A stretch of DNA of 56,084 bases from Phycisphaeraceae bacterium. Its GTDB lineage: Bacteria; Planctomycetota; Phycisphaerae; Phycisphaerales; Zrk34. The position numbers and the translations under genes were made by a program. The notes under the pieces were generated by a model, which ran no database searches, was not told the origin of the DNA, and saw nothing but the letters and a program-made list of their open reading frames with translations. Shown here one piece after another: positions 6,943 through 52,834 of this stretch. The stretch covers positions 1 through 56,084 of the forward strand of contig JANQHK010000012.1 of assembly GCA_028282685.1 (NCBI GenBank), given 5' to 3'. Each line of letters starts with the position of its first letter. The first letter of the stretch is position 1.

Positions 6943-8343
6943 TCAATGCCCGGCGACGGGTTCGCCGAGACGGGCCTTCAATTCACCAATCATCTTGTCG
7001 AGCGTGGCGGAATCGCGGGCTTCGAGGTTCAGCCGAAGCAGAGGTTCGGTGTTGGACTTGCGGATGTTGGCCCACCAGCCGGCATTGGCGAAGGCGTCGA
7101 CGGTGATGCCGTCCAGGTCGTCCATCTTCGCGCCGTCGGCGTAGGCGGAACGAATCTCGGCGATCATGCCGTCCTTGTCTTCAACTTCAAAATTGATCTC
7201 GCCGGATTGAGGGTACTTGCGGTACGGGGTGAGCAACCGGCTCATCGGCGTCTCGTTTTCACTGAGAATGGCGGCCACCGCGGCGAAGGTGATCAGGCCG
7301 CTGTCGGTGTACCAGTTATCACGGAAGTACATGTGTCCGGACAGTTCGGCGCCGAAGACGCCGTCGTTGTCTTTCATGACCTTTTTCATGAAGACGTGGC
7401 CGACCTTGCTGCGGCAGGGCGTTCCTCCGGCGGCTTCGATGACCTCCGCCAGCGCCTTGGTCGAGCGCAGGTCGAAGGCGATGGCTGAACCGGGATGGCG
7501 AGCGAGGAAGTAGTCGGCCAGGAGCGCGCCGAGATGATCGCAGCCGACGATGGCGCCGGTTTCATCGACGACCATGCAACGATCGGCATCGCCATCGAAG
7601 CAGACGCCGAAGTCGGCTCCGTGTTCTTTCACGCCTTCCTGCGTCTGGCGCATGTTCTCAGCGATGAGGGGGTTGGGGTCGTGGGCGAATTTGCCGTTGA
7701 TGCCGCCGACCTCAAAGTTGACGGGAATGACTTCGAGATTGCCTGCGCCATCGAACACCCTGGGGACACTGAGACCGGCCATGCCGTTCGACGCATCGAT
7801 CACCACCTTGAGCGGGCGTTTGAGATCGAGGAACCGGCGGACGTGTCGTCGGTAGTCGGCCCAGAGATCGCGCTGGTCACACTGTCCCGTCGGCTCCATC
7901 GCATCGGGGTTGACCGTGGCGGCGATGCGTTGGATGTCGACCAGGCCGGTGTCTTTACCGACGGGCTTGGCCTGGAGACCGGAGATTTTGAAGCCGTTGT
8001 AATGCGGCGGGTTGTGGCTGGCGGTGTTCATCACGCCCCCGCAACAGCCCAGGTGATTGACCGCGAAGTAGATGAACGAGGTGTCGCACAGGCCGACATC
8101 GATGACATTGACCCCGGCCATGCGGATGCCCTCGATCAGCGCCGCCGAGAGCGACGGGCTGCTGGTGCGCATGTCGCGCCCGACGACGATATGGTTCATC
8201 ATCGGATCGGAGGCATCGCGGCCGGTCACCTGGTTTTTCAGGTACTGGGCCGTGGCGATGCCGATGCGCCGGGTGATGTCTTCGTTGAGCGGATCGGGGT
8301 AGGTGCTGCGGATGTCGTAGGCCTTGAAAACCTTGCTGAGCAT
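6943..8343 (-). CDS. manB: Phosphomannomutase/phosphoglucomutase (AlgC/ManB type)
   Basis: Interconverts hexose 1- and 6-phosphates (mannose and/or glucose), supplying precursors for surface polysaccharide. The 466-residue protein matches the usual length. Seen in order: the phosphoserine loop NTASHNPPHYNGFK, the metal-binding loop DGDADRC, the sugar-binding GAELSGHMYF and the phosphate-binding NTEPLLRLNLEA. The start at 8343 (MLSKVFKAYDIR) is preceded by GAGG; longer upstream frames run through a repeat. A bifunctional enzyme is likely from the family, but specificity cannot be read from sequence. Confidence 0.92.
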   Translation of the reverse strand: MLSKVFKAYDIRSTYPDPLNEDITRRIGIATAQYLKNQVTGRDASDPMMNHIVVGRDMRTSSPSLSAALIEGIRMAGVNVIDVGLCDTSFIYFAVNHLGCCGGVMNTASHNPPHYNGFKISGLQAKPVGKDTGLVDIQRIAATVNPDAMEPTGQCDQRDLWADYRRHVRRFLDLKRPLKVVIDASNGMAGLSVPRVFDGAGNLEVIPVNFEVGGINGKFAHDPNPLIAENMRQTQEGVKEHGADFGVCFDGDADRCMVVDETGAIVGCDHLGALLADYFLARHPGSAIAFDLRSTKALAEVIEAAGGTPCRSKVGHVFMKKVMKDNDGVFGAELSGHMYFRDNWYTDSGLITFAAVAAILSENETPMSRLLTPYRKYPQSGEINFEVEDKDGMIAEIRSAYADGAKMDDLDGITVDAFANAGWWANIRKSNTEPLLRLNLEARDSATLDKMIGELKARLGEPVAGH

Positions 8344-8426
8344 GGTATTAACCTCGTGTTCACACGGTGGGTGGCGGTATCGAGCCCGGTAGGATACACG
8401 ATGAGCGAGTCGATTGACAAAAATGA

Positions 8427-8545
8427 GGGGCGCCACGTTTTGACCCGGAGGCGTAGCCGGAGGGCAAAGCGTGCTGCGCCATTGGAGACGGGGGCCATAG
8501 CACACTTTGCGGCGTCGAAGACGCTGCCGCCAAAGTATGGCGCCC
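8427..8545. repeat. GGCGCC-bounded double-hairpin element (copy 1)
   Basis: Outer ends GGGGCGCC (8427-8434) and GGCGCCC (8539-8545) are complementary. Inside are two hairpins: CACGTTTTG with CAAAGCGTG, and ACTTTG..GGC with GCC..CAAAGT. It fills the gap between the dinG-like and manB genes. Other copies: 16211-16310, 17735-17823 and 25163-25272. Confidence 0.7.
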
Positions 8546-8557
8546 AACAAGCGGTGC

Positions 8558-10626
8558 TTAACAAAACTCATCGCCGCCGCTTCGGACCACGGGCATCTCC
8601 GGCAACGCGCGGATGAACAGTCGGCCGTAGGGCTTGGTGCGGATGCGGCGGTCGAGGATGACCACCCGGCCACGGTCGCTGCGAGAGCGGATCAGCCGGC
8701 CGAAGCCCTGCTTGAGTTTGATGATCGCTTCGGGCAGCTGGTACTCGGCGAAGGGATTGCCGCCGCGCTCGCGGATGCGTTCGATCCGCGCTTCGACCAG
8801 CGGCCGATCGGGTACGGCGAAGGGCAGCTTGGTGATGATGACGTTGCGCAGGTGTTCACCCGGCACGTCCACGCCCTGCCAGAAACTGTCGGTTCCCAGC
8901 AACACGGCCGAACCATCGTCACGAAAGCGTCGCAGCAACATGGTGCGCGGCCCGTCGCGTCCCTGCGCCAGCACGGTATGGCCGAGGTCGGCGAGTCGCG
9001 GCGTGATCCACGCGGCCACACGATCCAGCAACTGGTAGCTGGTGAACAAGACGAATGCCCCGCCGCGCGTCCGGTTCACGTGTTCCAGAACGCAAGGCCC
9101 CAGCGCTTCGGCGAAACGTTTGTCGGCCGGGTCGGGCAGATCGGCATCGAGGATCAACTGCACCGCGCTGCTGTAATCGAACGGCGAGCCGAGTTGCAGG
9201 GTGTCGGCATCGTCGCAGCCCAGACGCGTCATCAGATGCGCGAAGGGATCGTGCTTGCGTTCCTCGGGGGGCTCGGGCGATTGGTGATGCTCCACGGGTT
9301 GCGGTTGGCCGGCGGTGGAGAGCGTGGCGCTGGTGAGGACCACGCCGACCGGTCGGCCGTCGCTGTTTTCCATGTTGAATAACTTATCGTGCAGCAACGG
9401 GCCCACGTCGATCGGCGCGCAGGCCAGCGTTATCTTCCGATACGACCGCCGACCGATCTGCATCCAGTAGACGGCTTGTTCGATCTTCTGGGCGCACCAG
9501 GTCTCAAACGCCGCGGCGTAGACCTCGGCCCGCTGAATGTATCCGCTCAGTTCGTACTGGTCGGCTTCGCTTTTCACCTTGGGGATGAGAATCCGCAGCG
9601 CGATGATCAATTCCTTCAGGGCATCGGTCAGCGTGTTCTCGACAATGCCCGGCTCGTCGACGCGTCCGTTGGATCGGCCGTGCCGGTCCTGCCACTTCTC
9701 CAGCGCATCGAAGAAGCGATCGCACGTATTCTGCGTGGCGATGATCTGTTCGACGGCCCTGTCCACCGCGGGCTGTTCGCGCAGGTCTTTCAGTTTGACC
9801 GAAGTGAGAAAGCCCTTGTGGCTGCGCGTGGAATAGAGCATGCCGAGCAGGTGGCCGACGGCGGTGTTGGCGATGGTGATGCCGAAGTGTTCGCCGGCGA
9901 CGTCCTCGATGTTGTGGGCTTCATCAAGGATGACGTGATCGTACGGCGGCAACAGCCCTGCCCCGCCGGCTCGCAGAACCAGATCGGCGAAGAACAGCGC
10001 GTGGTTGACCACGAGCAGATCGCCGTTTTCCATGCGACGCCGGGCCGCCTGGTAGAAACACTTGTTGTAGGTGGCGCACTTGCGGCCCATGCAGTTGCCC
10101 GAATCGCTCTGCACGCGATCCCACACGCCCATCCGCTGAATCACCGGCAGCGTGCTGAGCGAGCCGTCGTCGGTTTCCAGCGCCCAATCCTCGATCATGT
10201 GGAGCGAGCGCAGTTCCTGCTCGTTGTGGAACAACGAGCCCTGTCGGCTCGAAGTCATCGCCAGGCGGCGCAGCGAGACGTAATTGCCCCGCCCCTTGAC
10301 CAGCACCGCACTGAATTCCTCGTCGATGACCGCGTTAAGCAGCGGAATGTCCTTCTCGATGAGCTGTTCCTGCAGGGAGATCGTGTGCGTGGAGATGACG
10401 ACGCGCTCGTTGTGCTCGACGATGCGACGGATCGCCGGGACCAGGTAAGCGAAGGATTTGCCCACGCCCGTCCCCGCCTCGACGATCAGGGATCGGCCGT
10501 GATGCAGCGCGCGCTCGCAGGCCCGGGCCATATCGAACTGCTGCGGGCGTTCCTCGAAGCGTTCGCCGAGTCGCGCCGCGATGGGGCCGGCGGGACCGAG
10601 AATGTGTTCCACGTCAACGGGCATCC
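8558..10626 (-). CDS. dinG: DinG/XPD-like ATP-dependent DNA helicase
   Basis: A superfamily 2 helicase, usually 5'-3' and tied to repair of R-loops or stalled replication. About 688 residues. Seen: Walker A EAGTGVGKSF (about 50-60), a Cys-rich NCMGRKCATYNKCFYQAARR (likely three of the four iron-sulfur cluster ligands), NHALFFADLVL, DEAH box LDEAHNIED, and C-terminal motifs FVLFTSYQLL, SFWQGVDVPGE and QGFGRLIRSRSDRGRV. An in-frame GTG at 10639 is an alternative start; neither has a clear binding site. No exonuclease domain is present, unlike Firmicutes DinG. Related helicases such as YoaA cannot be excluded. Confidence 0.88.
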
Positions 10627-10698
10627 GCACATGATACACGCGAGACCGGTCTCATGACCGATCTGTATCCGAATGGGCGCCACACACCGCCCGTGCGG

Positions 10699-10704
10699 TA
10701 TAAT
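10699..10704 (+). promoter_or_regulatory. -10 box TATAAT of the HicB-like gene
   Basis: A perfect TATAAT lies 27 bases before the ATG at 10732. No good -35 is visible at the matching distance. Confidence 0.45.
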
Positions 10705-10731
10705 GTGTATACCTCCAGAGGAACCCCAGCC

Positions 10732-10935
10732 ATGCGCGAGTTCAATGTCATCGTCGAAAAAGATCCGGACGGTTATTACGTCGGAACGGTCCCCAACCTC
10801 AAGGGCTGCCACACCCAGGCGAAGTCGCTCGATGAATTAATGGAGCGCATCAAGGAAGCCATCGCGCTGTGTCTGGAGGTGGAACAGCCAACCTTCAGCG
10901 AATTCATCGGCGTTCAACGCGTGGCGGTAGCGTGA
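10732..10935 (+). CDS. Solitary HicB-like protein
   Basis: A 67-residue protein with the small HicB/UPF0150 fold: REFNVIVEKDPDGYYVGTVP, the turn NLKGCHTQAKSLDELMERIKEA, then a short C-terminal strand. HicB proteins usually neutralise the HicA mRNA interferase, but no HicA-like ORF lies on either side, and this copy is too short to carry a DNA-binding domain. It may be an orphan antitoxin or a family member with another role. The start is preceded by AGAGG at about 13 bases. Confidence 0.8.
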   Translation: MREFNVIVEKDPDGYYVGTVPNLKGCHTQAKSLDELMERIKEAIALCLEVEQPTFSEFIGVQRVAVA

Positions 10936-10998
10936 TGGGTGATTTTCCATCCGATACTAAACGGCCTGAAAGCTGACAACTGATGGCTTAAAGCTATC

Positions 10999-11709
10999 TC
11001 ACAGCGGTTCCTGTTTGGGGATGCCGGGGCGGCGGGGGTATTGCTTCGGTGTGGCCGATGCCTTGGTGACAATGACGACGACCGCATCTTCCTCCAAGCC
11101 GGGCAGGGATTCGTAGAGACCCACTTCACCGGCGCCAAGTTTCATCAGGGCATCGCCGCAATCCTGCAATTCTTCCTCCACGCGTCGGCCCTTCATCGCC
11201 AACACGCGTCCGTCGACTTTTACCAGCGGCAGCAGCAATTCCAACAGCACGTTCATCGGGCCGATCGCGCGCGCCACGGCCAGATCGTACCGCGCGCGGT
11301 GCTGGGGATTCTGGCCGATCGTTTCAGCGCGATCGTGCATGGCGGCCACGTTTTGCAATCCCAGCTCGCGCGCAGCGGTTTCAATGAATCTCACTTTTTT
11401 CCCCGTGGCGTCGAGGCAGGTGACGGCAATATCAGGTCGTGCAATGGCCAGCGGGATGCCCGGAAGTCCCCCGCCGCTGCCGACATCGATGACCGTTTTC
11501 GCTTCGTCGATAAACGGCAGGATCGACAGCGAATCCAGGCCGTGCCGCATCCACGCTTGGTCCGGATCCCTGATGGCCGTGAGGTTGAACTGCTTGTTGG
11601 TCTGGAGCAGCAGATCGAGAAATTGACCGAGTAGCGCGACGACATCATCGGACAGTTCCAGGCCGAGTGCTCGTGCAGCGACATGAAAAGATTCGGGAGG
11701 TTTCAGCAT
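10999..11709 (-). CDS. rsmG: 16S rRNA (guanine527-N7)-methyltransferase
   Basis: Adds a methyl group from S-adenosylmethionine to N7 of G527 of 16S rRNA; its loss gives low-level streptomycin resistance in other bacteria. The 236-residue protein has the SAM-binding motif VIDVGSGGGLPGIPLAIA (about 70-87), the acidic loop end TCLDATGKKVRFIE, and ARAIGPMNVLLE. The start MLKPPESFHV at 11709 fits the family; the longer frame adds a stretch translated from an intergenic repeat. It stands alone, not with the parAB/gidA cluster common elsewhere. Confidence 0.93.
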   Translation of the reverse strand: MLKPPESFHVAARALGLELSDDVVALLGQFLDLLLQTNKQFNLTAIRDPDQAWMRHGLDSLSILPFIDEAKTVIDVGSGGGLPGIPLAIARPDIAVTCLDATGKKVRFIETAARELGLQNVAAMHDRAETIGQNPQHRARYDLAVARAIGPMNVLLELLLPLVKVDGRVLAMKGRRVEEELQDCGDALMKLGAGEVGLYESLPGLEEDAVVVIVTKASATPKQYPRRPGIPKQEPL

Positions 11710-11715
11710 GGGATT

Positions 11716-11801
11716 AACCACAAAGGCACAAAGACACAAAAGCAATTCATTTCAACACGGAGGACCACTAAAAATGCTCTTTGACAGGATCAACAGGATA
11801 G
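11716..11801. repeat. Half copy of the CAGAGGCACAGAG / GACAGGAT repeat
   Basis: AACCACAAAGGCACAAAGAC at 11716-11735 followed by TTTGACAGGATCAACAGGAT at 11780-11799. The same two blocks in reverse order and strand are at 16434-16498, and a full inverted pair is at 44210-44365. Confidence 0.6.
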
Positions 11802-11832
11802 AGCGTCTTGCATGGTTTGTGTCCGGTCCGAA

Positions 11833-11969
11833 TGAGCCGCGACGGTGAGGGAGCGGTCGTCGGGCCGTTGATCCGCGTCCGACTTTCCGCTCTCCCGCCA
11901 GGTAAATGACCGCACCTGCCCCGCCGGGTTCGGGCGTTGTGCGGACCGCTTCCTCACAGGCGCGGCTCG
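11833..11969. repeat. Dispersed repeat with GAGCCGCG inverted ends (copy A)
   Basis: Ends GAGCCGCG and CGCGGCTCG are inverted. Read on the minus strand it matches 16137-16356 along both flanks (for example GAAGCGGTCCGCACA and GCGGATCAACGGCCCGACGA). In the centre it has only about 25 bases where the other copy holds a 100-bp GGCGCC-bounded element. Lies between rsmG and clpC, where there is no gene. Confidence 0.7.
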
Positions 11970-12051
11970 TCAATGCCCGCTGCGGTTGGATTGAAAATGC
12001 TCTAACGCGGTTTTTCACGATCCGCCATGGGTGACGGCGACGTCATTATTT

Positions 12052-14598
<2,547 letters not shown>

Positions 14599-14955
14599 AT
14601 CGGACTCCAAATTAAACGTAAGCCAACGGCCGGTCATCCCTGATATCGGCCCGTTACGTGGGGCATTATAGCACTACGAGGATGGTAATTCGGCTCCGTT
14701 TCATCATCGGCACAAAGCGTGAGGATTCCTTTGCAAATCCCGTACCGGCAATAACCTAACACCCCGGCGCAATCCGGCCGCTCCACTGCCAGATCGGCGC
14801 AACCCCGCCCGAACGCATGTGGGGATGGCAGATGCACCGATTCAACAGGCCTTTTTTTGACAAGGCGAGCGTCCATTCAGCGTCTGTATAATACCCGGCC
14901 ACAAAATCCCGCCGTTGGATTTTCCGGAGTTACGCGAAATTGGAGCCCCATCACA
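14599..14955. other. Divergent intergenic region, clpC / lipoprotein
   Basis: No gene seen. It holds -10-like boxes for both directions: TATAAT on the minus strand at about 14665 for clpC, and TATAAT at 14887-14892 on the plus strand for the lipoprotein gene. A TTGACA at 14857-14862 is 24 bases from the latter, too far for a standard pair. Confidence 0.45.
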
Positions 14956-16110
14956 ATGCAAAACCGCCTCGCCCCTATCGCTCTCGCCGTTTTCATTCTG
15001 AGCTTAGCCGCATGCGCGCAGAACACCGCATACCGCATCGAGCCCATCGACCGCGCGTTTGCCGAAAAGTACGGCCTGGATCGCGCGTTCTACAAAAAAC
15101 ACACCTCGGTGCAGGGGATCGAAATTATCTCCTCCGAGCGGGTTTCGGACATAGCCCACCGGGAAGCGGGATTCCTGATTGAAAAGCAGATGGCGAACCT
15201 GAGGCCGGACGTCGCCCGGCGCATCCGCGAGGCCGACGTTCTTTACTTCATCATCGGCAACAACGAGCTGTCCAGTCAGGTCCCGGAAATGCGCACCGAC
15301 GCCACCGGGGACCAGCTGGATTACTACAACTGGCGCGCACGCGGAATGAAGACGCAATGGCGCGGCCGCACCGTCGTGATCAGCGCCGAGGAAGACCTGC
15401 TCGAATACGAAGGCGGCATGCGGAATGAAAGCATCTTCATTCACGAATTCGCCCACCTGATCCACGGAGAGGGATTCGACAAAAAACTCAATGAGCGACT
15501 GAACCAAACCTACCGCGTGGCGCTGGACCGCCATCTCTGGCAGGATGCGCGACCGGCGCAACGGTTTCGCCGGATCACCGGTCCGCAGCCCGTCGCCCTG
15601 CTCGATGCGCTCGACCGGTCGTTCGAGGATTGCTCACGCGCGTTTTTCCGCCGGTGTTTCGCCGACGGCCGCATCCTCGTCAACGGCTCCCCCGCGGAGG
15701 AAACGGTCAAGGTCACCGCCGAGGACAAGGTTCTGATCCTTTACGACGGGCCGAAGACGGCCTACGCCGGGAAAAACCGCGCCGAATACTGGGCGGAGAT
15801 CGCCCAGGCCTGGTACGACACCAATCGGGTCCACGATCACGATCACAACCACGTCGACACGCGCGAGGAATTGCTGCTCTACGATCCGATCGGCGCCGCG
15901 CTGTGCGCGGAGGTGCTCGGCCACGATGCCTGGCGATTCGTCTCGCCGCGCCAACGTGCCGGCAAAGGACACCTGAAAGGTTACGATCCGAACACCGCGC
16001 CCAAGCACATCCAATCCGATGCGATCAAGGATGCGGCAAACGACTACTACGACAAATACTGGAAGCCCTACCGCGATCGTCTCAAACAGCGTTACGCGGA
16101 TGACGGCTGA
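14956..16110 (+). CDS. Lipoprotein with HExxH metalloprotease motif
   Basis: A 384-residue exported protein. Seen: an N-terminal signal with lipobox LSLAACAQ (Cys about residue 19), and a zinc-binding motif IFIHEFAHLIHGEGFD at about 160-175, where HEFAH is HExxH. A possible third ligand lies further on, in the acidic/aromatic region RAEYWAEIAQAWYDTN. A His-rich stretch HDHDHNHVD follows at about 295. The ATG at 14956 is preceded by GGAG. A zinc peptidase facing the periplasm is the likely role; it vaguely recalls lethal-factor-like (ATLF) proteases, which I cannot confirm. No partner gene is evident. Confidence 0.7.
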   Translation: MQNRLAPIALAVFILSLAACAQNTAYRIEPIDRAFAEKYGLDRAFYKKHTSVQGIEIISSERVSDIAHREAGFLIEKQMANLRPDVARRIREADVLYFIIGNNELSSQVPEMRTDATGDQLDYYNWRARGMKTQWRGRTVVISAEEDLLEYEGGMRNESIFIHEFAHLIHGEGFDKKLNERLNQTYRVALDRHLWQDARPAQRFRRITGPQPVALLDALDRSFEDCSRAFFRRCFADGRILVNGSPAEETVKVTAEDKVLILYDGPKTAYAGKNRAEYWAEIAQAWYDTNRVHDHDHNHVDTREELLLYDPIGAALCAEVLGHDAWRFVSPRQRAGKGHLKGYDPNTAPKHIQSDAIKDAANDYYDKYWKPYRDRLKQRYADDG

Positions 16111-16136
16111 GAAAGCGTGTGAGAAGAGTTCTTGTA

Positions 16137-16356
16137 CGAGCCGCGCCCGTCAGGAAGCGGTCCGCACAGCGCTCGAACCCGGCGGGGCATGCGCGGTCAT
16201 GCGCCCGCGAGGCGCCCCATCTTCGCCCGAAGGGCAAGGTGGGTGGGTAGAAGAGATGCGACGCAGTCCACTTTGCCCTTCGACTTGGCTCAGGGCGAAA
16301 GTGGGGCGCCCGGCGGATCAACGGCCCGACGACCACTCCCTCACCGTCGCGGCTCG
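16137..16356. repeat. Dispersed repeat with CGAGCCGCG inverted ends (copy B), interrupted
   Basis: Ends CGAGCCGCG (16137-16145) and CGCGGCTCG (16348-16356) are a 9-bp perfect inverted repeat. Its flanks match copy A at 11833-11969 on the other strand. Its centre is occupied by the double-hairpin element 16211-16310, which suggests insertion of one element in another. Confidence 0.7.
16211..16310. repeat. GGCGCC-bounded double-hairpin element (copy 2)
   Basis: Outer ends GGCGCCCC and GGGGCGCC are perfectly complementary. Hairpin 1 pairs CCATCTT..GCCC with GGGC..AAGGTGG. Hairpin 2 pairs CCACTTTGCCC with GGGCGAAAGTGG. It lies inside repeat copy B. Confidence 0.7.
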
Positions 16357-16433
16357 CTTTTTTCACTTCTCACACACACTCTTAGACCGGACAGACAAGA
16401 TGATTAGGGTTTCTTCCTGATAACAATCCATAC

Positions 16434-16498
16434 AATCCTGTTCATCTTGTCAAAAACAATGGCTTCTTTTTGACTCTGTGCCTCTGTGTCTCTGTGGT
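16434..16498. repeat. Half copy of the GACAGGAT / CAGAGGCACAGAG repeat, reversed
   Basis: ATCCTGTTCATCTTGTCAAAA then CTGTGCCTCTGTGTCTCTGTGG; the reverse complement of the arrangement at 11716-11801. Confidence 0.6.
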
Positions 16499-16506
16499 AT
16501 TTCTTT

Positions 16507-17559
16507 TCAATTCGCTTCGGAAATCGGATAGGTATCGGGCAGGTCGATGGCCTGACCGGAGGCGGCGGAATCGTGAATCGCCTGCACCTTGCGCATGTAG
16601 CGCAGGCCTTCGGTGAAATCGGGACTCACGCCCCACGTTTCGCCGCGCAACGCGCTGCGCACCGCATCGAGGAACTGCGTCTCCACGTCCCACCGCCATT
16701 GCTGGTCAACCGGAATGTCCAGCGGCCGGAGCGGTTCGTTCTCCCGGCCGAACTGGATCTGTTTCATCGCATCGATGCGTAACGTGCCGCGCGAGCCGAA
16801 GATCGTCGCGCGGTTGATCGCTTCGTGCTGACACACGCCGCTGTGATGCTCGACGAGCACCGCGCCGCCGGCCAGCGTGCCCGAGACGGCGATGATCTGC
16901 GGAATGCGGATCGCGTAGGGCTTGCCGTCGTCGTCGGGCTTGGTTTGGATGGGGATGGCGACGGCCGCGGCCAGGGCTTCGCATTCGCCGACCCACGCGT
17001 TCAGCGTTTCCGCCCAGATGCCCACCTGCATCGCCTGCAATCCGCTGTACTCGGCGCGCTGGCGCCAGTTCAGCCCGTTGGCGCAACTGTCATCCAGACA
17101 GAGCACCTGAACGGCATAGATTTCACCGAGCCGGCCGTCGTCGATCATCCGTTTGATGGCCGGCTCCCACGGCATGCGGTGCGGGGGTGGGCAAAGCATG
17201 GCGACTTGCTCCGGATGGCGACGGGCCGCTTCGGCCATGGCATTCGCCTCTTCCCAGTTCATGCACATGCGCGCCTGACAGAACACATGCTTGCCCGCCT
17301 CCAGCGCCGCTATGGACATCTCGCAGTGACGGTACGGCCAGGTGCCGATCATCACCGCGTCGACATCATCGCGTTCAATCAGTTCCCGCCAATCGGCGCC
17401 GACCTGCTCGATCCCCCACGCCTCAGCGACGGCACGGCCGCTGGCTTCGGTGCGATTGCACACCGCCCGCAGAATCGCATCGTCGTGTTGACGCAATCCC
17501 GGCAGATGACGCTGGCGGAAAATACCGCCCGCCCCGATGATGGCAATCCGGATACCCAT
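16507..17559 (-). CDS. Gfo/Idh/MocA-family NAD(P)-dependent oxidoreductase
   Basis: About 350 residues. The N-terminal Rossmann fold is clear: IRIAIIGAGGIFRQRHLPGL (GxGxxx variant), then DDVDAVMIGTWPYRH and ALEAGKHVFCQARMCMNWEEA, where the usual EKP is replaced by CQARM, so the conserved Lys of this family is missing. The C-terminal alpha/beta domain follows (FGSRGTLRIDAMKQIQFG). Substrate is likely a sugar or cyclitol derivative; unassigned. The ATG at 17559 gives the usual MGIRIAIIG start; an in-frame ATG at 17571 is possible. It stands alone between two repeat-rich gaps. Confidence 0.85.
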   Translation of the reverse strand: MGIRIAIIGAGGIFRQRHLPGLRQHDDAILRAVCNRTEASGRAVAEAWGIEQVGADWRELIERDDVDAVMIGTWPYRHCEMSIAALEAGKHVFCQARMCMNWEEANAMAEAARRHPEQVAMLCPPPHRMPWEPAIKRMIDDGRLGEIYAVQVLCLDDSCANGLNWRQRAEYSGLQAMQVGIWAETLNAWVGECEALAAAVAIPIQTKPDDDGKPYAIRIPQIIAVSGTLAGGAVLVEHHSGVCQHEAINRATIFGSRGTLRIDAMKQIQFGRENEPLRPLDIPVDQQWRWDVETQFLDAVRSALRGETWGVSPDFTEGLRYMRKVQAIHDSAASGQAIDLPDTYPISEAN

Positions 17560-17571
17560 CCTTCCTCGCAT

Positions 17572-17975
17572 ACCGCTGCTTCAAGACAGAACAAACCGGA
17601 TGTGAACGCAAGAGCAATAATATAACAACAAAGAAAGTCCAATAAAATCAAAAATCCGCACATGCACCCGCTTGCACAACGACAACTTACAACTTCGGTT
17701 CAGGTTTGGTGAGTGAACGGATTTGTGGCTATTCGGGCGCCCCGCTTTCACGGCTTGCCGCAAAGTGGTCATGCCAACTTCTGCACTCACCCACCTTGCC
17801 CTTCGGGCGAAGGTGGGGCGCCCGGCTTGTTCCCACATCACCACATCACACATCACCGAATATCCCCGCGCTCCCCTTCGGGTCGCGGCTAAACAAAACT
17901 GGCGTTTACTGGATTCACGTCTGCGCGAGAATGACGAGTTCTGCCCCCGCCTGTGGGAGAATGACGAGACCTGCC
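17572..17975. other. Repeat-rich intergenic stretch
   Basis: No gene seen. Besides the element at 17735-17823 it contains CGCTCCCCTTCGGGTCGCGG at about 17870-17889, whose reverse complement recurs near 33315-33341, and two GAGAATGACGAG phrases at about 17929 and 17959. Confidence 0.5.
17735..17823. repeat. GGCGCC-bounded double-hairpin element (copy 3)
   Basis: Outer ends GGGCGCCCC and GGGGCGCCC pair perfectly. Hairpin 1 is CCGCTTT/AAAGTGG with an inner GGC/GCC; hairpin 2 is CCACCTTGCCC/GGGCGAAGGTGG with loop TTC. Confidence 0.7.
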
Positions 17976-19769
17976 TTACTCCTCCGGCTCGAGCACGGCC
18001 ATGAAGGCCGACTGGGGGATGTCGACCGAGCCGACGCGTTTCATGCGTTTCTTGCCTTCCTTCTGTTTTTCCAGCAGCTTGCGTTTTCGAGAGACGTCGC
18101 CGCCGTAGCACTTGGCCGTGACGTTCTTGCGCATGGCCTTGATCGATTCGCGTGCAACGATCTTGCCGCCGATGGCCGCCTGGAGCGGAATCTCGAACTG
18201 GTGGCGGTCGATGTGTTTCTTCAGTTTCACCAGCAGCGTTCGGCCGCGCTTCTCGGCCGTCTCGCGGTGGCAGATGAAACTGAGCGCATCGACGGGCTTG
18301 CCGTTGACCAGCACATCGACCTTGGCCAAACGCTCGGCCCGGTAGCCCTGCAATTCGTAGTCCATGGTGCCGTAGCCGCGCGTCAGCGACTTCAGCTTGT
18401 CGTAGAAGTCGTAGATGATCTCGGCCAGGGGCAACTCGTAGTCGATGATCTGGCGGGTGTCGGAGAGAAACTGCTGCTTGAGATACTTACCGCGCCGGGA
18501 ATCGCACAGTTTCATCAGGTCGCCGATCGATTCGTTGGGCGTGATGATCTCCAGGCGCACGATCGGCTCGCGCAGTTCCTTGACCAGTGAGGGATCGGGC
18601 AACTCGGCGGGATTGTGAATCTGCGTGACCTTGCCATCGGTCTGCATCACTTCGTAGGTGACGGTGGGCGCGGTCTGGACCAGCTCCAGGCCGTGCTCGC
18701 GCTCCAGGCGTTCCTGGATGATTTCCATGTGGAGCAGGCCGAGGAACCCGCAGCGGAACCCGAAGCCCAGCGCCTCGTTGTGTTCCGGGGCAAACTCGAA
18801 GCTGACATCGTTGAGGTGGAGCTTTTCGATGGCCTTGCGCAGATCGTCGTAATCGCATTCGCCGGTGGGATAGAAATCGCAGAAGACCATGCGCTGCGGT
18901 TCACGGTAACCTTCCAGCGGGGTGTCGGCGGGATGTTTTTCCTGCGTGACGGTGTCGCCGATGTTCACTTCGTCCAGCGTCTTGATCGAAGCGTAGAGCA
19001 GACCGACCTCCCCGGCTTCGAGTTGATCGACCTTCTGTTCCTTGGGCATGAGTTTGGCCAGGCCGGTGACGGGGTAGGTGCGCTCGGCCTGCATCATGCG
19101 GACCTGATCGCCGACTTTCAGCCGCCCCTCGAAGACGCGCACGAAGACCACCACGCCGCGGTAGTCGTCGTAGATCGAATCGAAGATCAGGGCGCGCGTG
19201 GGTTTATCGACTTCCTGCCCGGGCGCGGGCAGACGCGTGCAGATGGCGGCCAGCAGTTCATCGACGCCCTGGCCGGACTTGGCCGAGCAGGCGATGCACG
19301 ATTCGGCATCGTACCCGAAGACCGACTCGACCTCCATGGCGATTTCCTCGGGCCGGGCCGAGGGCAGATCGACCTTGTTGAGCACGGGGATGATTTCCAG
19401 ATCGTGCTCGACGGCGAGATAGCAGTTGGCGACGGTCTGGGCTTCGATGCCCTGCGACGCATCGACCACCAGCAGCGCGCCTTCGCAGGCGGTCAGCGCC
19501 CGACTGACCTCGTAGGCGAAGTCCACGTGGCCGGGCGTGTCGATGAAGTTGAGCATGTATTCTTCGCCGTCGTGGGTGTGGTGGATGGTGACGGCAGAGG
19601 CCTTGATGGTGATGCCGCGCTCGCGCTCCAGGTCCATGTCGTCGAGGAGCTGGGCCTTCATCTCGCGTTCGGAGATGGCGCCGACGCGCTCGAGCATCCG
19701 GTCGGCGAGCGTGCTCTTGCCGTGGTCGATGTGGGCGATGATACAGAAGTTACGAATGTTCCGTGTCAT
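17976..19769 (-). CDS. lepA: Elongation factor 4 (back-translocating GTPase LepA)
   Basis: Ribosome-binding GTPase that acts in initiation/back-translocation under stress. 597 residues, the family's usual length. Seen: G1 AHIDHGKST (about 11-19), GITIKASAVT, G3 DTPGHVDF, G4 NKVDLP, and the LepA-specific C-terminal region (GTMDYELQGYRAERLAKVDVLVNG, KCYGGDVSRKRKLLEKQKEGKKRMK). The start at 19769 (MTRNIRNFCIIAHID) fits; it has no ribosome binding site, and a TACAAT box ends 12 bases upstream. Downstream of cmk-plsC on the same strand with a 108-base gap. Confidence 0.96.
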   Translation of the reverse strand: MTRNIRNFCIIAHIDHGKSTLADRMLERVGAISEREMKAQLLDDMDLERERGITIKASAVTIHHTHDGEEYMLNFIDTPGHVDFAYEVSRALTACEGALLVVDASQGIEAQTVANCYLAVEHDLEIIPVLNKVDLPSARPEEIAMEVESVFGYDAESCIACSAKSGQGVDELLAAICTRLPAPGQEVDKPTRALIFDSIYDDYRGVVVFVRVFEGRLKVGDQVRMMQAERTYPVTGLAKLMPKEQKVDQLEAGEVGLLYASIKTLDEVNIGDTVTQEKHPADTPLEGYREPQRMVFCDFYPTGECDYDDLRKAIEKLHLNDVSFEFAPEHNEALGFGFRCGFLGLLHMEIIQERLEREHGLELVQTAPTVTYEVMQTDGKVTQIHNPAELPDPSLVKELREPIVRLEIITPNESIGDLMKLCDSRRGKYLKQQFLSDTRQIIDYELPLAEIIYDFYDKLKSLTRGYGTMDYELQGYRAERLAKVDVLVNGKPVDALSFICHRETAEKRGRTLLVKLKKHIDRHQFEIPLQAAIGGKIVARESIKAMRKNVTAKCYGGDVSRKRKLLEKQKEGKKRMKRVGSVDIPQSAFMAVLEPEE

Positions 19770-19877
19770 GGTAAGCGGGGTATTGTAGCAGGAAAGACGG
19801 CTAAGGCACGAAGGCAATAAGGCACACAGGGACGCAGGTTTAATAACACGTTTAGCGGTCGATCAACGATCGACGCT

Positions 19878-20609
19878 TCACACCGCCGATTGATCCCCGG
19901 CGGTGTCGGCGGGGTAGCGGCCGTTGGAGTTACAGCGGAGCTTGCGGCGCAGGTCGATGCGCAGCCGCTCGACGGCGGTCCGCAGATGTTCGGCGGCATC
20001 CCGCGGCGGCATGGCGATCAACGCGTCGGCGGCAATGGGCGTGCCGTACTGCACCCCGACGCGTCCGGTCAGACGCGGGCGCTTGACGTGGATCGGCCAG
20101 ACGTCGTAGCAGCCGTCCACCGCCAACGGCAGAACGGTCGCTTTGGCGCGGCGGATCAGCGTCATGATGCCCGGGCTGAACGGCTGGATCGTTCCATCCG
20201 CGGTGCGCGAACCTTCCGGAAACACGAGCACACAATGGCCCTGGCGCAGCAGTTCGATGGCGTTGCGTATGGACTTGATATCGCCTCGGTTCTGGTCGAC
20301 GGGGAAGGCGTTGAGGCGGCTGATGAGTCTGCCGAAAAATGGATTATCGAACAAGGTCGATCGCGCCATGGAATAAAAATGGCGTCGGGCAATACCGGCT
20401 CCCAGCGTACTGAGATCGAGGTAGGACTGGTGGTTGGCCACCAGCAGCAACGGGCCGGAGGCGGGGATGTTTCCCGCGCCCCACGCGCGGTGCCGCCAGA
20501 GAAGAAAACAGACCAGCCAGCTCAGTCCCCGGCCCAACAAATCCCAGAGGAGGATGCGCCCCAGCGAAGCGCCGGGATTGTGTCGCCGCAACCAGGCCAG
20601 CGAGATCAT
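19878..20609 (-). CDS. plsC: 1-acyl-sn-glycerol-3-phosphate acyltransferase
   Basis: Adds the second acyl chain to lysophosphatidic acid at the inner membrane, giving phosphatidic acid. 243 residues. Seen: an N-terminal hydrophobic segment (LLWDLLGRGLSWLVCFLLW), the catalytic NHQSYLD (HxxxxD motif, about 59-65) and the phosphate-binding FPEGSRT. Its ATG overlaps the cmk stop codon (ATGA), so translation is probably coupled. This cmk-plsC order is common in several phyla. Confidence 0.9.
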   Translation of the reverse strand: MISLAWLRRHNPGASLGRILLWDLLGRGLSWLVCFLLWRHRAWGAGNIPASGPLLLVANHQSYLDLSTLGAGIARRHFYSMARSTLFDNPFFGRLISRLNAFPVDQNRGDIKSIRNAIELLRQGHCVLVFPEGSRTADGTIQPFSPGIMTLIRRAKATVLPLAVDGCYDVWPIHVKRPRLTGRVGVQYGTPIAADALIAMPPRDAAEHLRTAVERLRIDLRRKLRCNSNGRYPADTAGDQSAV

Positions 20610-21301
20610 GCCGACCGCTCTCCCTCAGCGCGGACGTGAGCGATCACCGCTTCGATCACCTGGTCGAGCGTCATGTCGCTGGTGTCGATGCACGTGGCGT
20701 TTTCAGGACAGACCAGCGGCCCATCGGCGCGCGTGCGGTCGCGCTCGTCACGGTAGAGAATCTGCTGAAGGATTTTCGTTTCGTCGGCGGGTTTGCCGGC
20801 TTCCCGTAACTGCAAGGCGCGGCGGCGGGCGCGGATCGGCGGCGCCGCATCCAGGTACAGCTTCACCTGCGCTTCGCAAAAGACGACCGAGCCCTGGTCG
20901 CGCCCCTCGGTGACCAGTCGGCCCTTGTCCTGACCAATCAAACGCTGCGCGCGCACCAGCATCCGGCGCACGCACGCATTGGCGGCGATATCGCTGACGG
21001 CCCGGGTCACATCCGCATCGCGCAGGCGGTGGGTCAGGTCCACGCCGTTCACCGTCAGATGCGGCGGGTCTTCGTTGCCGAATCGCAGATCCAGATCGGC
21101 GGCAAACTCGGCCACGGCATCGTGATCGGCCGGGTCCATGCCCGCTTCGAGAACGGCCGCCGCCACACCGCGGTACATCGCGCCGGTATCGAGAAAATAC
21201 AGACCCAATTGGCGGGCGACCTGCCGGGCGACGGTGGATTTACCGGAGCCGGCCGGGCCGTCGATGGTCACAATCAGCGTTGACGAAGATGGCTCAGTCA
21301 T
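20606..21301 (-). CDS. cmk: Cytidylate kinase
   Basis: Phosphorylates CMP and dCMP with ATP, recycling pyrimidines for nucleic acid and phospholipid synthesis. 231 residues. Seen: P-loop [17 protein letters not shown] (about 11-27), [17 protein letters not shown], the [12 protein letters not shown] segment, the [12 protein letters not shown] active site and the lid [14 protein letters not shown]. The start at 21301 ([15 protein letters not shown]) places the P-loop correctly; the longer frame is not conserved. First gene of cmk-plsC(-lepA). Confidence 0.95.
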
Positions 21302-21426
21302 GCAGCGGACAAGGATAGCGACTGCGCGGCGGGCCGTACAGAGTTGCCGGATGCGGCGCGGCGGTTTACGCATCCGCCGACCGTTCGTATGATGCACCGG
21401 TCCAACCCATGCAGCAGGAGTCCTTC

Positions 21427-21810
21427 ATGCCATCCCCTTCCGATTGTCGATTCGCCGAGAGCCACGAATGGCACCAACCGCAGGGCGACCTGGTGGCCCT
21501 GGGTCTCAGCCGCTTTGCCGTGGACGAACTGACAGACGTGACGTTTGTCGATCTGCCCGAGGCGGGCGCCACGTTCAACGCCGGAGACAGTATCGGTGAA
21601 GTCGAATCCGTGAAAACCACCAGCGATATCTACACGGGCATTGGTGGTGAGATCGCCGAGGTCAACGACAAGGCCGTCGGCGACCCGTCCCTGCTCAACA
21701 GCGATCCCTTCGGCGACGGCTGGCTGGTCAAGATCAAACCGACCGACGCCGCCCAACTCGAGGCGCTGATGAGCGCCGAAGAGTACGACGCGAAATACCC
21801 GACGGCCTGA
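21427..21810 (+). CDS. gcvH: Glycine cleavage system H protein
   Basis: Lipoyl carrier that shuttles the aminomethyl group between the P, T and L proteins of glycine cleavage. 127 residues. Seen: ESHEWHQPQGDLVALGLSRF, FVDLPEAGATF and the lipoyl-lysine loop GEVESVKTTSDIYTG, with Lys at about 60. The ATG at 21427 follows CAGGAG. P, T and L genes are not in the window. It is divergent from cmk. Confidence 0.94.
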   Translation: MPSPSDCRFAESHEWHQPQGDLVALGLSRFAVDELTDVTFVDLPEAGATFNAGDSIGEVESVKTTSDIYTGIGGEIAEVNDKAVGDPSLLNSDPFGDGWLVKIKPTDAAQLEALMSAEEYDAKYPTA

Positions 21811-21822
21811 ACGGCGGTGGGT

Positions 21823-21897
21823 CAACCGGGGTTGAGGGCGAGTAAAGCCCAAGGTTGAGGGCGAGTCACGCCGGTGACGAGACCGAAACCTGGGGTT
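21823..21897. repeat. Left flanking repeat of the RAYT-like gene
   Basis: One partial and one full 23-bp unit (AAGCCCAAGGTTGAGGGCGA.. at 21845-21867), then a terminal block to about 21894. Within it CGAGTCAC (21862-21869) pairs with GTGACGAG (21874-21881) in a stem holding a tandem G.A/A.G mismatch. Bases 21842-21897 recur at 22621-22676 in the same orientation with about one mismatch. Confidence 0.75.
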
Positions 21898-21915
21898 CCT
21901 GTGTCACAACACGGC

Positions 21916-22452
21916 TTACCCGACAGAATCTCCCTGCCGGAAATCCCACACCCAATCCCCGTGCCGGGTATGTTCCAAGATGTAGCGGTAGACGCGCAGT
22001 TGATGCGCACGGTCACGAACCGCAATCGGCTTGCCGCCACGTGCCCAGATGTTGCCCGGCATGCGACCGCGAATCGCATGGGAAGAGGCGACCTTCAGCC
22101 GTCGGGTATATTCCTTTGCCCATTCGTAATCATTCCGTAATTCAACAAGAACATGTGCATGCGTCGCGCCGACACTCACGGCCAATACCGGCGTATCGCT
22201 TTTCCCGCATTTCTTGACTACAGCCATGCCCACAATCTCAAACAAGCTCTCGGGGATGACGATTGCCTGCTTCAGTTGGTCTCGTTGATAACAATGAAGG
22301 CCGTGATGCTCTCCTTCCGGCGGCGGATCACGATAATCACCGGACGAGTGAATACGGTGATCGCGCGTGCGAAAACCGCGCGGATCGCCATGCAGCCATG
22401 ACCCTTTGGTGTGTAAGACCAAATGCCACCAACAGCATCCCCAGCGCGGCAT
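21916..22452 (-). CDS. RAYT-like HUH (Y1/IS200-type) transposase
   Basis: A 178-residue relative of REP-associated tyrosine transposases, which nick single-stranded DNA hairpins. Seen: N-terminal WHLVLHTKGSWLHGDPRGF and HRIHSSGDYRDPP, a central HUH-type motif GATHAHVLVEL (H-A-H, about 95-97), the helix AKEYTRRLKVASSHAIRG, and PIAVRDRAHQLRVYRYILEH followed by GDWVWDFR. The catalytic Tyr is probably in VYRYILEH, which is inference. It has flanking repeats on both sides, the arrangement expected for RAYT genes. Start at 22452 fits the start of the conserved region. It may be domesticated, as no second copy is in the window. Confidence 0.75.
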   Translation of the reverse strand: MPRWGCCWWHLVLHTKGSWLHGDPRGFRTRDHRIHSSGDYRDPPPEGEHHGLHCYQRDQLKQAIVIPESLFEIVGMAVVKKCGKSDTPVLAVSVGATHAHVLVELRNDYEWAKEYTRRLKVASSHAIRGRMPGNIWARGGKPIAVRDRAHQLRVYRYILEHTRHGDWVWDFRQGDSVG

Positions 22453-22484
22453 GAAGCCCCCATGGTTTGAGAAAGCCAGATGAT

Positions 22485-22676
22485 CCCGGGTTTCGGCCTC
22501 GCGGACTCGGCCTCAACCTCGGGCTTGATTGTATGAGAACCCACAATGAATCCCAAGCCCGGGGTCGAGGGCGAGTCAAGCCCGAGGTCGAGGACGAGTA
22601 AAGCCCAAGGTCGAGGACGAGTAAAGCCCAAGGTTGAGGGCGAGTCACGCCGGTGACGAGACCGAAACCTGGGATT
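22485..22676. repeat. Right flanking repeat array of the RAYT-like gene
   Basis: An inverted copy of the repeat at 22485-22531, then four tandem 23-bp units beginning AAGCCC at 22555, 22578, 22601 and 22624 (consensus AAGCCCRRGGTYGAGGRCGA), then the terminal block 22647-22673. CGAGTCAC/GTGACGAG at 22641-22660 forms the tandem G.A stem. The last bases abut the stop codon of the next gene. Confidence 0.75.
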
Positions 22677-25123
22677 CAACCGCGATCCAGAATCCGATCG
22701 ATCATCAACCGGTAGTGCGCGCGGCTCGGATCGTCCGGGGAGGTGCGGCGGATCGCCTGCTCGTAGGCCCGCACGGCCTGCTCGTTTTCGCCCTTGATGT
22801 AATGCCACTGCGCCAGGCCCGCCCAAGGCTGCGACGAGCCAGGGCTGAGCTGCCGCGCCCGCTCCAGCCATTGCCGCGCCTTGTCGAGATCGACCTCGCG
22901 TGCAAGGGCGACCATGGCCGCGTCGAACAGCACCGTCCAACGATCGGGGGCCGCGGCGATCCAGTTTTCGTAGACCTGCTGCGCCTTGCTCAGTTCGCCC
23001 CGTGACAGCAGCGCATCGAGGTAACGATCCAGCAGACCGGCTTCGGTGGTCGTCGGCGTGACAATCTTCTCGTACAGTTCGATCGCTTTCTCGTATTCCT
23101 TCAGATCGGTCCAGGCAAAAGCCAGTTCGCGCTGGGCGGCGGCGTCATCGGGATGCCATTGCAGATGCTCCTCCAATTCCTCGGCGCGCTTGCGGACTTC
23201 AGGCAGCTTCCGCAAATCCCCGAGCAGAAGCATGCCGTAATCGCCCAGGCCCATATCGGATTCGGCCCAGCGCGCTTTGCGGAACATCGCGCGGGCCCGG
23301 CTTTCATCGCCCCGGTGACGCGCCACCAGCCCCAGCACGGCATAGACCTCGCCCTGCCTCGGCCAAAGCTCCAGCGCAAGCCGCGCATGATGCTCGGCCT
23401 GGGCGAACAGTTCATCCTGCGCCTGCGGATGGTTCAAAGCCCGACGGACCAGCGCCGAGGCCAGGAACCCCTGGAAGCGGCCGCTTTGGGGCTGGGTGGT
23501 CGCCGCGGTGATGGTGACGTGGGTGTCGGGGTCGGACCACGTGGGACTGTAAAGACAGGTCGCAGCGCCGTATCCCAGCCCCATGAGTGTGATCAGGACA
23601 ATCGCTGCGCCCTGTTTGGTTGCCAGGTGGGCCCACCAGCCCCAAACGATTATCGCCGCCGCCATCACGATCAACGGGATGATGACCCGAGCCACCGGAT
23701 CGACCCCCAACCCGACCTCGCCCAACTGCGACCAGATCGGCCACCAGTACGCATCCTGAAAGTAGAGATAGACCGCCATCGCCGCCGCGGCAATCGCCAC
23801 GGCCATCCATCCGGCGCGGCCCCGCAGCTTGTCCCACGGCGCCATCATCGCGATGACAATCGGCACGAAAATGCTCAGCGTGGTCAACAGGCGCTCGCCG
23901 AAGATCGTTCCGATCAGAATGACGGTGTTGGATGGAATCAACCACGCGAAGGGCATCATCATCAACGGCCCGGCGATGACCCGCCGCCGCCGCCAGGCAC
24001 GGACCGTCAGCCAGCACCACAGTCCCGCCACCGCCAGGCCGAGCAGAACGAGCGGTCGATCCAGCCGCCGCGTGGGCATCAGCATGCGCGGCGAATAATC
24101 GGGCGACTGATCGTACGGTACGGCCAGCAGCTTTGCGGCCTGCCCGATGAGCATGAACGGCGTGACGATCCGTTCGGCCGGCGAGGTGTATTGCAGGGGG
24201 TTGTCGAGTTGGGAGACGGCAGCGCGTTCGTCGATTTCCGCCAGTTCGCGCATCACCATGCGCTGGCCGAACGCCAGACCGCCCACCGCGATCAAGACCA
24301 ACGCCGCACGCCACGGCGCCGGATAAAAAAGCGAGCGGCGTTCGCGTCGCCGCTCGACGATTTCCAACACCAGATACATGAACGCAAGGAAATAGCCCTG
24401 CTCCTTGGACGCGATGGCCAGGTAAGTGACCAATCCCAGGACCATGGCGCGCGGCCAGGTGAAATCCGCCCGCCAGCGCAACCAGAGGTTCAGCCCGATG
24501 GCGATGAACAGGGCCGCGGCGATTTCCGCACGCCCCACCACGTTCGCCGCCACCTCCACGTGGATCGGATGGACGGCGAAAAGCATCCCCACCGCCCAGG
24601 CCGCGATCCCGGCTCGATTCCCCTCGCCCTTCAAGGCAGAGGGTTGGGGAGAGGGCGAGTTACGGGAGTGAGTCGTTTTCCCGGAATCATCCCCCTCACC
24701 CGCCCGCCTTAGCTGCGCTTCGGCGGTCGCCCTCTCCCCCACCTGGGGGAGAGGTGAGTGTGCCAGCCATCGCCAGGCCAGGCGCGACACCGCGGCACAA
24801 CACAATGCGTAGAGAAGTACATTGACGGCATGGAACCATGCCGGCTCACGCCCGTGCAACTGGTTCTGAAGCCAGAAGCTGAAGGTGATTAGCGGACGCG
24901 TGGCCGGGGCCGCCGATCCCTTGGGCCACCACGGCGCGACCCAGGCCTCCAGTCCGAAGCCCGGTTCATCAAGGCGGGTGTCGGCGACGATGATGCCGTT
25001 GTCATCGTAGACAAATCCGTAGCCGACGCTGGAGGCGTACACGGCGGCGCCGATGATCGCCGCGGCCAGCGCCGCCGACCACGGATGTATCAGACCCTCA
25101 CGGACTCGCCGGGGAATCGGCAT
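22676..25123 (-). CDS. TMTC-like membrane protein with C-terminal TPRs
   Basis: An 815-residue membrane protein resembling the TMTC/GT-C type protein O-mannosyltransferases. Seen: a first membrane segment, the lumenal motif YGFVYDDNGIIVADTR (about 34-49), RPLITFSFWLQNQLHG, NVLLYALCCAAVSRL, AVHPIHVEVAANVVGRAEI and several more membrane helices to about residue 510; then at least four TPR-like repeats (AERHARLALELWPRQGEVYAVLG type, EKAIELYEKIV, DKARQWLERARQL, EQAVRAYEQAI). Residues about 118-168 are low-complexity and come from an in-frame intergenic-type repeat. Transferase activity is inferred from the family; the substrate is unknown. Confidence 0.8.
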   Translation of the reverse strand: MPIPRRVREGLIHPWSAALAAAIIGAAVYASSVGYGFVYDDNGIIVADTRLDEPGFGLEAWVAPWWPKGSAAPATRPLITFSFWLQNQLHGREPAWFHAVNVLLYALCCAAVSRLAWRWLAHSPLPQVGERATAEAQLRRAGEGDDSGKTTHSRNSPSPQPSALKGEGNRAGIAAWAVGMLFAVHPIHVEVAANVVGRAEIAAALFIAIGLNLWLRWRADFTWPRAMVLGLVTYLAIASKEQGYFLAFMYLVLEIVERRRERRSLFYPAPWRAALVLIAVGGLAFGQRMVMRELAEIDERAAVSQLDNPLQYTSPAERIVTPFMLIGQAAKLLAVPYDQSPDYSPRMLMPTRRLDRPLVLLGLAVAGLWCWLTVRAWRRRRVIAGPLMMMPFAWLIPSNTVILIGTIFGERLLTTLSIFVPIVIAMMAPWDKLRGRAGWMAVAIAAAAMAVYLYFQDAYWWPIWSQLGEVGLGVDPVARVIIPLIVMAAAIIVWGWWAHLATKQGAAIVLITLMGLGYGAATCLYSPTWSDPDTHVTITAATTQPQSGRFQGFLASALVRRALNHPQAQDELFAQAEHHARLALELWPRQGEVYAVLGLVARHRGDESRARAMFRKARWAESDMGLGDYGMLLLGDLRKLPEVRKRAEELEEHLQWHPDDAAAQRELAFAWTDLKEYEKAIELYEKIVTPTTTEAGLLDRYLDALLSRGELSKAQQVYENWIAAAPDRWTVLFDAAMVALAREVDLDKARQWLERARQLSPGSSQPWAGLAQWHYIKGENEQAVRAYEQAIRRTSPDDPSRAHYRLMIDRILDRG
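24620..24756. repeat. Intergenic-type repeat inside the TMTC-like gene
   Basis: Contains CTCGCCCT/AGGGCGAG (about 24623-24659) and CCTCTCCCCC/GGGGGAGAGG (24731-24754). The same CTCCCCC/GGGGGAG type sits between cysI and cysH. Its total length keeps the reading frame open. Confidence 0.65.
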
Positions 25124-44209: not shown

Positions 44210-44363
44210 AACCGCAGAGGCACAGAGTCGCAGAGAAAATTTTGACAGGATGAACAGGATATACCGGATACTGATACTGACTTTTTGTAGATCAAGTCGA
44301 TCCAGTTAATCCTGTCAAAAATAAATTACTTCAATCTGCCTCTGCGTCTCTGCGCCTCTGTGG

Positions 44364-44365
<2 letters not shown>
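44210..44365. repeat. Large imperfect palindrome (CAGAGGCACAGAG / GACAGGAT repeat, full)
   Basis: Outer arms 44210-44235 and 44340-44365 pair with about three mismatches; inner arms ATTTTGACAGGAT (44239-44251) and ATCCTGTCAAAA (44309-44320) also pair. The right arm reaches the alaS stop codon. Half copies are at 11716-11801 and 16434-16498. Confidence 0.7.
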
Positions 44366-47165
<2,800 letters not shown>

Positions 47166-52821: not shown

Positions 52822-52834
52822 CCGGTTAACTGGT
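52805..52834. repeat. 30-bp perfect palindrome over the DUF1015 stop codon
   Basis: Built of TTAACCGG steps (CAGTTAACCGGTTAACC is its left part). The arms are perfectly complementary; the last Gln-Leu-Thr-Gly codons and TAA at 52819-52821 lie inside it. Confidence 0.8.

Follow-up and report, generated by a model that had tools for sequence, protein, structure and literature searches.

How does one small repeat come to lie inside another? Two elements in the 56,084-nucleotide stretch of Phycisphaeraceae DNA analysed here (the window) raise this question. They share two inverted matches, one of 65 bp (91%, E 9e-19) and one of 43 bp (98%, E 2e-13), and the second element carries at its centre a GGCGCC-bounded element of exactly 100 bp (16211-16310). 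A sequence-only reading had already claimed an inverted match of 11833-11969 along both flanks, the 100-bp central element and 9-bp inverted ends for the second copy, and all three claims held, the ends being CGAGCCGCG (16137-16145) and CGCGGCTCG (16348-16356). In the first copy, T occupies the outermost position, 11833 (TGAGCCGCG), which leaves one mismatch in its 9-bp inverted ends. In both copies the homology extends beyond these ends into outer stems, to 11799-12004 in the first and to about 16110-16382 in the second. An RsmG-like methyltransferase gene and a Clp ATPase gene border the first copy. The second follows an open reading frame without a Pfam match; its low end (16110) is the last base of the stop codon of the open reading frame 14857-16110. 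With REP1 for the repeat near the ends of both copies and REP2 for the inner one, the features are as follows.

11799-12004, + strand: complete short element; outer stem of type A on the left and type C on the right
11834-11858, + strand: left REP1 (GAGCCGCGACGGTGAGGGAGCGGTC)
11877-11905, + strand: short centre between the two matching arms, 29 nt
11944-11968, - strand: right REP1 variant (GAGCCGCGCCTGTGAGGAAGCGGTC)
16110-16382, - strand: complete long element; type B outer stem on both sides
16138-16162, + strand: REP1 variant (GAGCCGCGCCCGTCAGGAAGCGGTC)
16211-16310, no strand assigned: nested REP2 pair, 100 bp, GGCGCC-bounded, with one hairpin tip of the CGCCCTGAGC..GAAGGGC kind
16331-16355, - strand: REP1 with one mismatch
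17734-17824, + strand: solo REP2 pair, outside any REP1 element

Other repeats are also present in the window. A different dispersed repeat, with tgtgcctctgtgtctctgtgg, lies at 16435-16498, 44215-44260 and 44300-44364; a direct pair of 69 bp (96%) at 21830-21898 and 22609-22677; and inverted pairs at 25522-25624 and 39852-39954 and at 26211-26277 and 39244-39310. There is a perfect 30-bp palindrome at 52805-52834, and another palindrome forms the contig end (55982-56084).

We searched the whole 2.94-Mb genome with the 20-mer of the left end, allowing up to 3 mismatches, and obtained 82 matches compared to 3 for a reversed-pattern control, a count of halves to which one complete copy can contribute two matches and in which contig ends truncate many copies. 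Searching for both ends and then reading the loci gave 20 complete copies of 123-218 bp: 14 of 123-137 bp, one of 151 bp and five of 205-218 bp. Their centres were short in 14 copies, held the GGCGCC hairpin in the five long copies and held half of the hairpin in one. The nested reading required that the central hairpin not be a fixed part of every copy, and it survived this check since 14 of the 20 complete copies are without it. Copies sit at many unrelated sites in both orientations, with and without the inner module, and some are near-identical. A second pattern gave 33 readable left halves after one match inside a gene had been removed, of which 26 had a short centre, six a long one and one half of the hairpin; beyond its centre, one of the 26 (L030, on contig C150) gives way to foreign sequence. 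The pattern missed two type C copies (L022 and L031), both with the short centre. There are also very short forms in which a single REP1 hairpin closes the outer stem (C150:9305 and C57).

REP1 (GAGCCGCGACGGTGAGGGAGCGGTC) sits at the left end of the element, and reading inwards from the right end gives the variant GAGCCGCGCCCGTGAGGAAGCGGTC. These are enclosed by outer stems, of which we distinguish type A (TAGAGCGTCTTGC...), type B (AGAGTGTGTGTGAGAAG...) and type C (TAGAGCATTCC...); each type has its partner on the opposite side. By reading, the 20 complete copies comprised nine A/A, five B/B (one of them, L020, scored from only 6 bases on its left), three C/C and three mixed pairs, namely L006 (A/C), L011 (A/B) and L032 (C/A); the first window copy (A/C) is among the mixed ones. 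When folded as single-stranded DNA, the long window copy was far more stable than its shuffles (z -5.6, 0/200 as good), and the short one was little better than shuffles (z -2.1, 9/200 as good).

The inner module turned out to have a life of its own. The right arm of REP2 matched 18 places in the genome (control, 1), of which, by reading, seven are nested in REP1 elements (in one of them, C68, the left REP1 arm is missing) and 11 are solo, including the pair at 17734-17824. Two solo copies flank a RAYT gene, C150:5514-6059, one on each side, and the product of this gene passes the NCBIfam REP_Tyr_transpos cut-off (100.4 vs 80 bits). REP2 is thus linked to a REP-flanked RAYT in the same genome, as in REPIN systems. 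Two alternative hairpin tips exist, and each was found in both nested and solo REP2; the tips are a third layer of exchange. The GGCGCC module is a second, independent REP family. The suggestion that one repeat is nested in another was therefore borne out, with the inner family standing alone at 11 places and flanking a RAYT gene.

A REPIN consists of two inverted REPs and a spacer and is thought to be moved by a Y1 transposase, the RAYT (Bertels and Rainey 2011, PMC3116915, as far as its text was available); excision of REPIN doublets, seen in population sequencing, is also reported there. Two inverted REPs with a spacer are what the 20 complete copies have, and inverted pairs also occur in the related genomes G060, G025 and G029. 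Small dispersed repeats of the REP/REPIN kind are known, and the present repeat is one of them, with unusual layering and exchangeability of its parts. Like the REPINs of the available parts of PMC3116915, the elements have two inverted REPs with a spacer, could form a single hairpin and are dispersed between genes. Unlike them, they have an extra outer stem in three types, the spacer can hold a second REP pair, and modules have apparently been swapped. The BIMEs of enterobacteria also are mosaic combinations of REPs, which alternate in a row. Mosaic REPs are thus common to both, but here one pair lies inside another rather than alternating with it.

We consider it likely that these composite REPINs spread through Y1 transposases acting on single-stranded hairpins, and that their modules are swapped by recombination or template switching and lost by slippage. 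In this mechanism two inverted REP1 would make up the core of a long palindrome, enclosed by one of the three outer stem types, and in some copies the second inverted pair, REP2, would sit at the apex. Y1 transposases would cut and join the single-stranded hairpins and so spread the palindromes, with REP1 probably handled by a class-3-like Y1 protein (see below) and REP2 by the RAYT at C150:5514-6059. Recombination or template switching between copies would exchange outer stems, centre and hairpin tip, and slippage would delete arms. The sequences directly show the copy number, the potential for pairing, the nesting, the solo REP2, the REP2-RAYT linkage in this genome and the REP1-Y1 linkage in relatives; from these we infer the cutting, the movement and the swapping of modules.

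The difference between the two window copies had been taken as the pattern left by insertion or exchange of a mobile cassette. The exchangeable cassette stands; insertion is not supported in the form stated. A check for empty sites and target duplications found a cleanly empty centre in none of the 33 readable left halves, and reading the flanks by eye, without statistics, revealed no target duplications beyond TA. To our knowledge REP systems do not leave target duplications, so their absence is no argument against the REPIN mechanism. When the 20 complete copies were placed in a tree by their arms (about 105 columns), long copies were interleaved with short ones and formed no clade, each being 95-98% identical to its nearest short copy. 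These identities in the absence of a long clade, together with the mixed stems of three of the 20 copies, point to exchange between copies. Three copies whose left stem is of type C (L022, L031 and L032) differ by 13-18% from the nearest other copy and have the short centre. Together with the arm tree, this argues that the short centre is probably old, and that the long module may have reached several arms by exchange or been lost repeatedly. Module exchange between copies, with deletions in addition, explains the pattern no worse than a single simple insertion would.

The centre of the first window copy had been described as about 25 unrelated bases. Its length is 29 nt, and it is not clearly unrelated: with segments picked by eye, the short-centre consensus aligned to the left arm of the nested module so well that only 7 of 2000 shuffles were as good (9 of 2000 for the type C centre). 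An older deletion is possible because of this resemblance. The long form would then be ancestral and the short centre its deletion remnant, nothing having been inserted, a reading that we hold for somewhat doubtful. It would explain the want of clean empty centres among the 33 left halves, and the copy of 151 bp (C103) looks like a partial deletion. Against it, the short centre is found in the three diverged copies whose left stem is type C, REP2 stands alone at 11 sites, and similarity to the arm of a solo REP2 is weak (matched by 98 of 2000 shuffles, and by 239 of 2000 for the type C centre, segments again chosen by eye).

Module exchange in a REPIN leaves the outer ends to be accounted for. 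A search for type A ends gave 49 matches (control, 0). Paired, these ends give an inverted repeat of 13 bp with a single mismatch (TAGAGCRTCTTGC), and type C ends also start with TAGAGCAT. By eye, the A and C ends (TAGAGC...GCTCTA) fit terminal inverted repeats at a possible TA duplication, which, as far as we know, is not a REPIN feature. The whole unit might then be a MITE whose outer TAGAG ends are recognised by a DDE transposase that duplicates TA, with the REPs as passengers; the presence of copies at unrelated sites would agree with this. We consider it unlikely, since type B ends do not start with TA and by eye show no consistent duplication, and DDE_3 (PF13358, IS630/Tc1-like), the one DDE family searched, had no match in this genome. 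Moreover, among the 46 distinct readable type A ends, 44 adjoin REP1 and the other two are the ends of a single 66-bp element (C146). Relatives share the REP, and the 134-base core, searched there apart from the outer stems, gave only partial matches. Correia and RUP elements and the TA-duplicating MITEs likewise have inverted ends and exist in short and long forms through internal change. The present elements share both properties, but differ in that no DDE_3 transposase was found here and the REP core is common across genera.

The C146 element, an outer stem without core, was at first read as an empty site. We dropped this reading when it was found to keep CGAGCC of the core, with AGCC at both deletion ends. 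It looks like the product of a deletion between two AGCC repeats, with CGAGCC left over, and it could conceivably be an insertion with duplication of AGCC instead.

Retention of the palindromes as RNA structures, terminators or mRNA stabilisers, with little spread, seems very unlikely to us. Both window copies are intergenic and one begins at a stop codon, as such structures might, but near-identical copies at unrelated sites and in both orientations indicate spread. Rfam gave no match at gathering score in 8000-24000, and a simple promoter and terminator scan of 11700-16600 placed nothing inside either element. That copies were wrongly joined in assembly is barely credible: many contigs end within the repeat (e.g. 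C3, C9, C45, C60, C132 and C138) and C22 and C35 appear to end in false palindromes, but both window copies lie inside a 56-kb contig with differing flanks, and long, short and mixed forms recur at interior places on several contigs.

We return to the composite REPIN and the enzyme that REP1 would require. REP1 with up to 1 mismatch was present in 21 of 61 genomes of the order (control 0 in each), a set that includes the present genome as the only one of its genus; the copies often form inverted pairs, as in G060. In G035, contig C1 has rows of same-orientation REP1, mostly 43 to 84 bp apart (e.g. 44508-44952 and 2892967-2893160). Nine REP1-bearing genomes gave 38 Y1 transposase matches, and 30 of these loci were read. 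REP1 lay on both sides within about 250 bp at four of the 30 (G008, G035, G005 and G034:C170), and on one side at one (G024), beside a Y1 protein of another type. By rough arithmetic, with two search patterns that differ slightly, about 1 REP1 would be expected across all 30 loci (385 REP1 in about 35 Mb), compared to 12 seen with up to 1 mismatch.

The four REP1-flanked proteins have HuH motifs (NHVH twice, DHVH and THLH), W[TAS]RHGSTR and Y----Q. Checked in the relatives by motif rather than by a class 3 profile, the class 3 pattern (NHVH, W[TA], YV[VI][AENY]EQ) appeared as NHVH, NHIH, DHVH or THLH, then WT, WA or WS, and as YVLHEQ, YVLEEQ, YVLDAQ, YVLERQ, YVHDRQ or YTLESQ. The REP1-linked Y1 proteins thus seem to be near class 3 of PMC6006769, not letter for letter. 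They resemble class 3 TnpAY1, in the available text of that paper, in their HuH and W[TA] motifs, in REP structures on either side of the gene and in a high copy number. The foot of the class 3 REP is given there as CnGA; in this genome it is ACGA in 25 of 28 distinct REP1 copies. Besides the foot, the motifs that are not letter-identical and the in-frame location in valyl-tRNA synthetase of several relatives (see below) set the present proteins apart from class 3 in PMC6006769. Among named genomes, the exact 25-mer matched only a MAG labelled Bryobacteraceae (JASHSD010000274.1; L075, 480-620), in which the same REP1 core has the feet CCGA and CTGA, a likeness to class 3.

The own genome yielded no REP1-linked class-3-like gene. 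The protein there that best matches a class-3-like one (C72, 33% identical, E 1e-9) has THAH and other motifs and was not taken as the cognate enzyme. Three of the four PF01797 genes had no REP1. The fourth, C150:12914-13504, has a REP1 element 23 bases beyond its end; we dropped this RAYT as the REP1 enzyme because its subfamily, with 37 matches, had REP1 nearby at only one of the 30 loci read, C150 itself. At this locus (L106, C150:4500-13781), two RAYT-like genes that belong to one subfamily, C150:10887-11576 (- strand) and 12914-13504 (+ strand), flank recA.

In relatives, a Y1 domain was found inside valyl-tRNA synthetase, in frame and without stop codons, in a single loop where it has SDQWYVKVTDDRL on one side and the RYAKTF..WHENIRDWCISRQLWWGH motif on the other. 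This was the case in 11 of 15 genes read, a non-random sample chosen for long frames or matches; the carriers (L283-L293) are G035, G042, G005, G016, G034, G024, G060, G012, G008, G007 and G020. Four fusions scanned with Pfam had the order synthetase, Y1, synthetase, with Y1_Tnp scores (cut-off 23 bits) of 24.9 for G035, 32.7 for G042, 24.3 for G016 and, just below, 22.5 for G012. With NCBIfam models, only G012 of four fusions was over the cut-off (REP_Tyr_transpos, 87.4 vs 80); G035 and G042 were below, and G005 had no match at E 1e-6. By motif, seven are class-3-like (G035, G042, G005, G016, G008, G007 and G020), and all of these except G016 have REP1 or its right-end variant in the loop. 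The other four (G034, G024, G060 and G012) are of another RAYT class and have no REP1 in the loop. In G020 (L293), the right-end variant occurs five times in tandem, 39 bp apart, and is translated in frame (TSRAREEAG...) before the Y1 domain.

The loop varies between close relatives. In genus g2, G008 has the Y1 domain and G001 is without it; in genus g12, G016 and G020 have one class, G012 has the other, and G028 has no Y1 domain but a REP-like remnant. These differences suggest that the domain may have been gained and lost in this loop. The G028 loop (L299) is uninterrupted, and its REP1-like remnant (GAGCCGCGACTGT...GTGAGGAAGCGG) is possibly the scar of a lost insert. In the parts of PMC6006769 available, unusually long proteins were left out. 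Single REPs inside tRNA synthetase genes of other bacteria are described in accessible text of PMC3733652, and the portion of PMC2817692 open to a word search has no mention of planctomycetes, Solibacter or fusions. Among open PMC papers, titles and the starts of abstracts yielded no RAYT inside valyl-tRNA synthetase.

The own valyl-tRNA synthetase did not appear over the cut-off among the matches listed (E up to about 1e-56) in a genome that is 98.5% complete. There were nine matches to the synthetase model, and among those listed only a stretch of C157 covers model positions 246-747; it is below the cut-off and probably another synthetase. Nor did tblastn over 155 loci of the genome (330 kb) detect the gene, which may lie in an assembly gap. 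We tentatively propose, as a possibility that we would not favour at present, that REP1 of this genome is served in trans by a Y1 domain in frame in valyl-tRNA synthetase, the essential gene protecting the transposase from loss and two RAYT classes sharing the loop, with the own gene hidden in a gap made by the REPs themselves.

REPs are common and how they diversify is poorly known. In this genome three layers of interchangeable modules, drawn from two REP families, make such exchange traceable. In the relatives, a transposase embedded in frame within an essential enzyme, which some genomes of one genus have and others lack, would offer a testable case of how a repeat and its enzyme persist.
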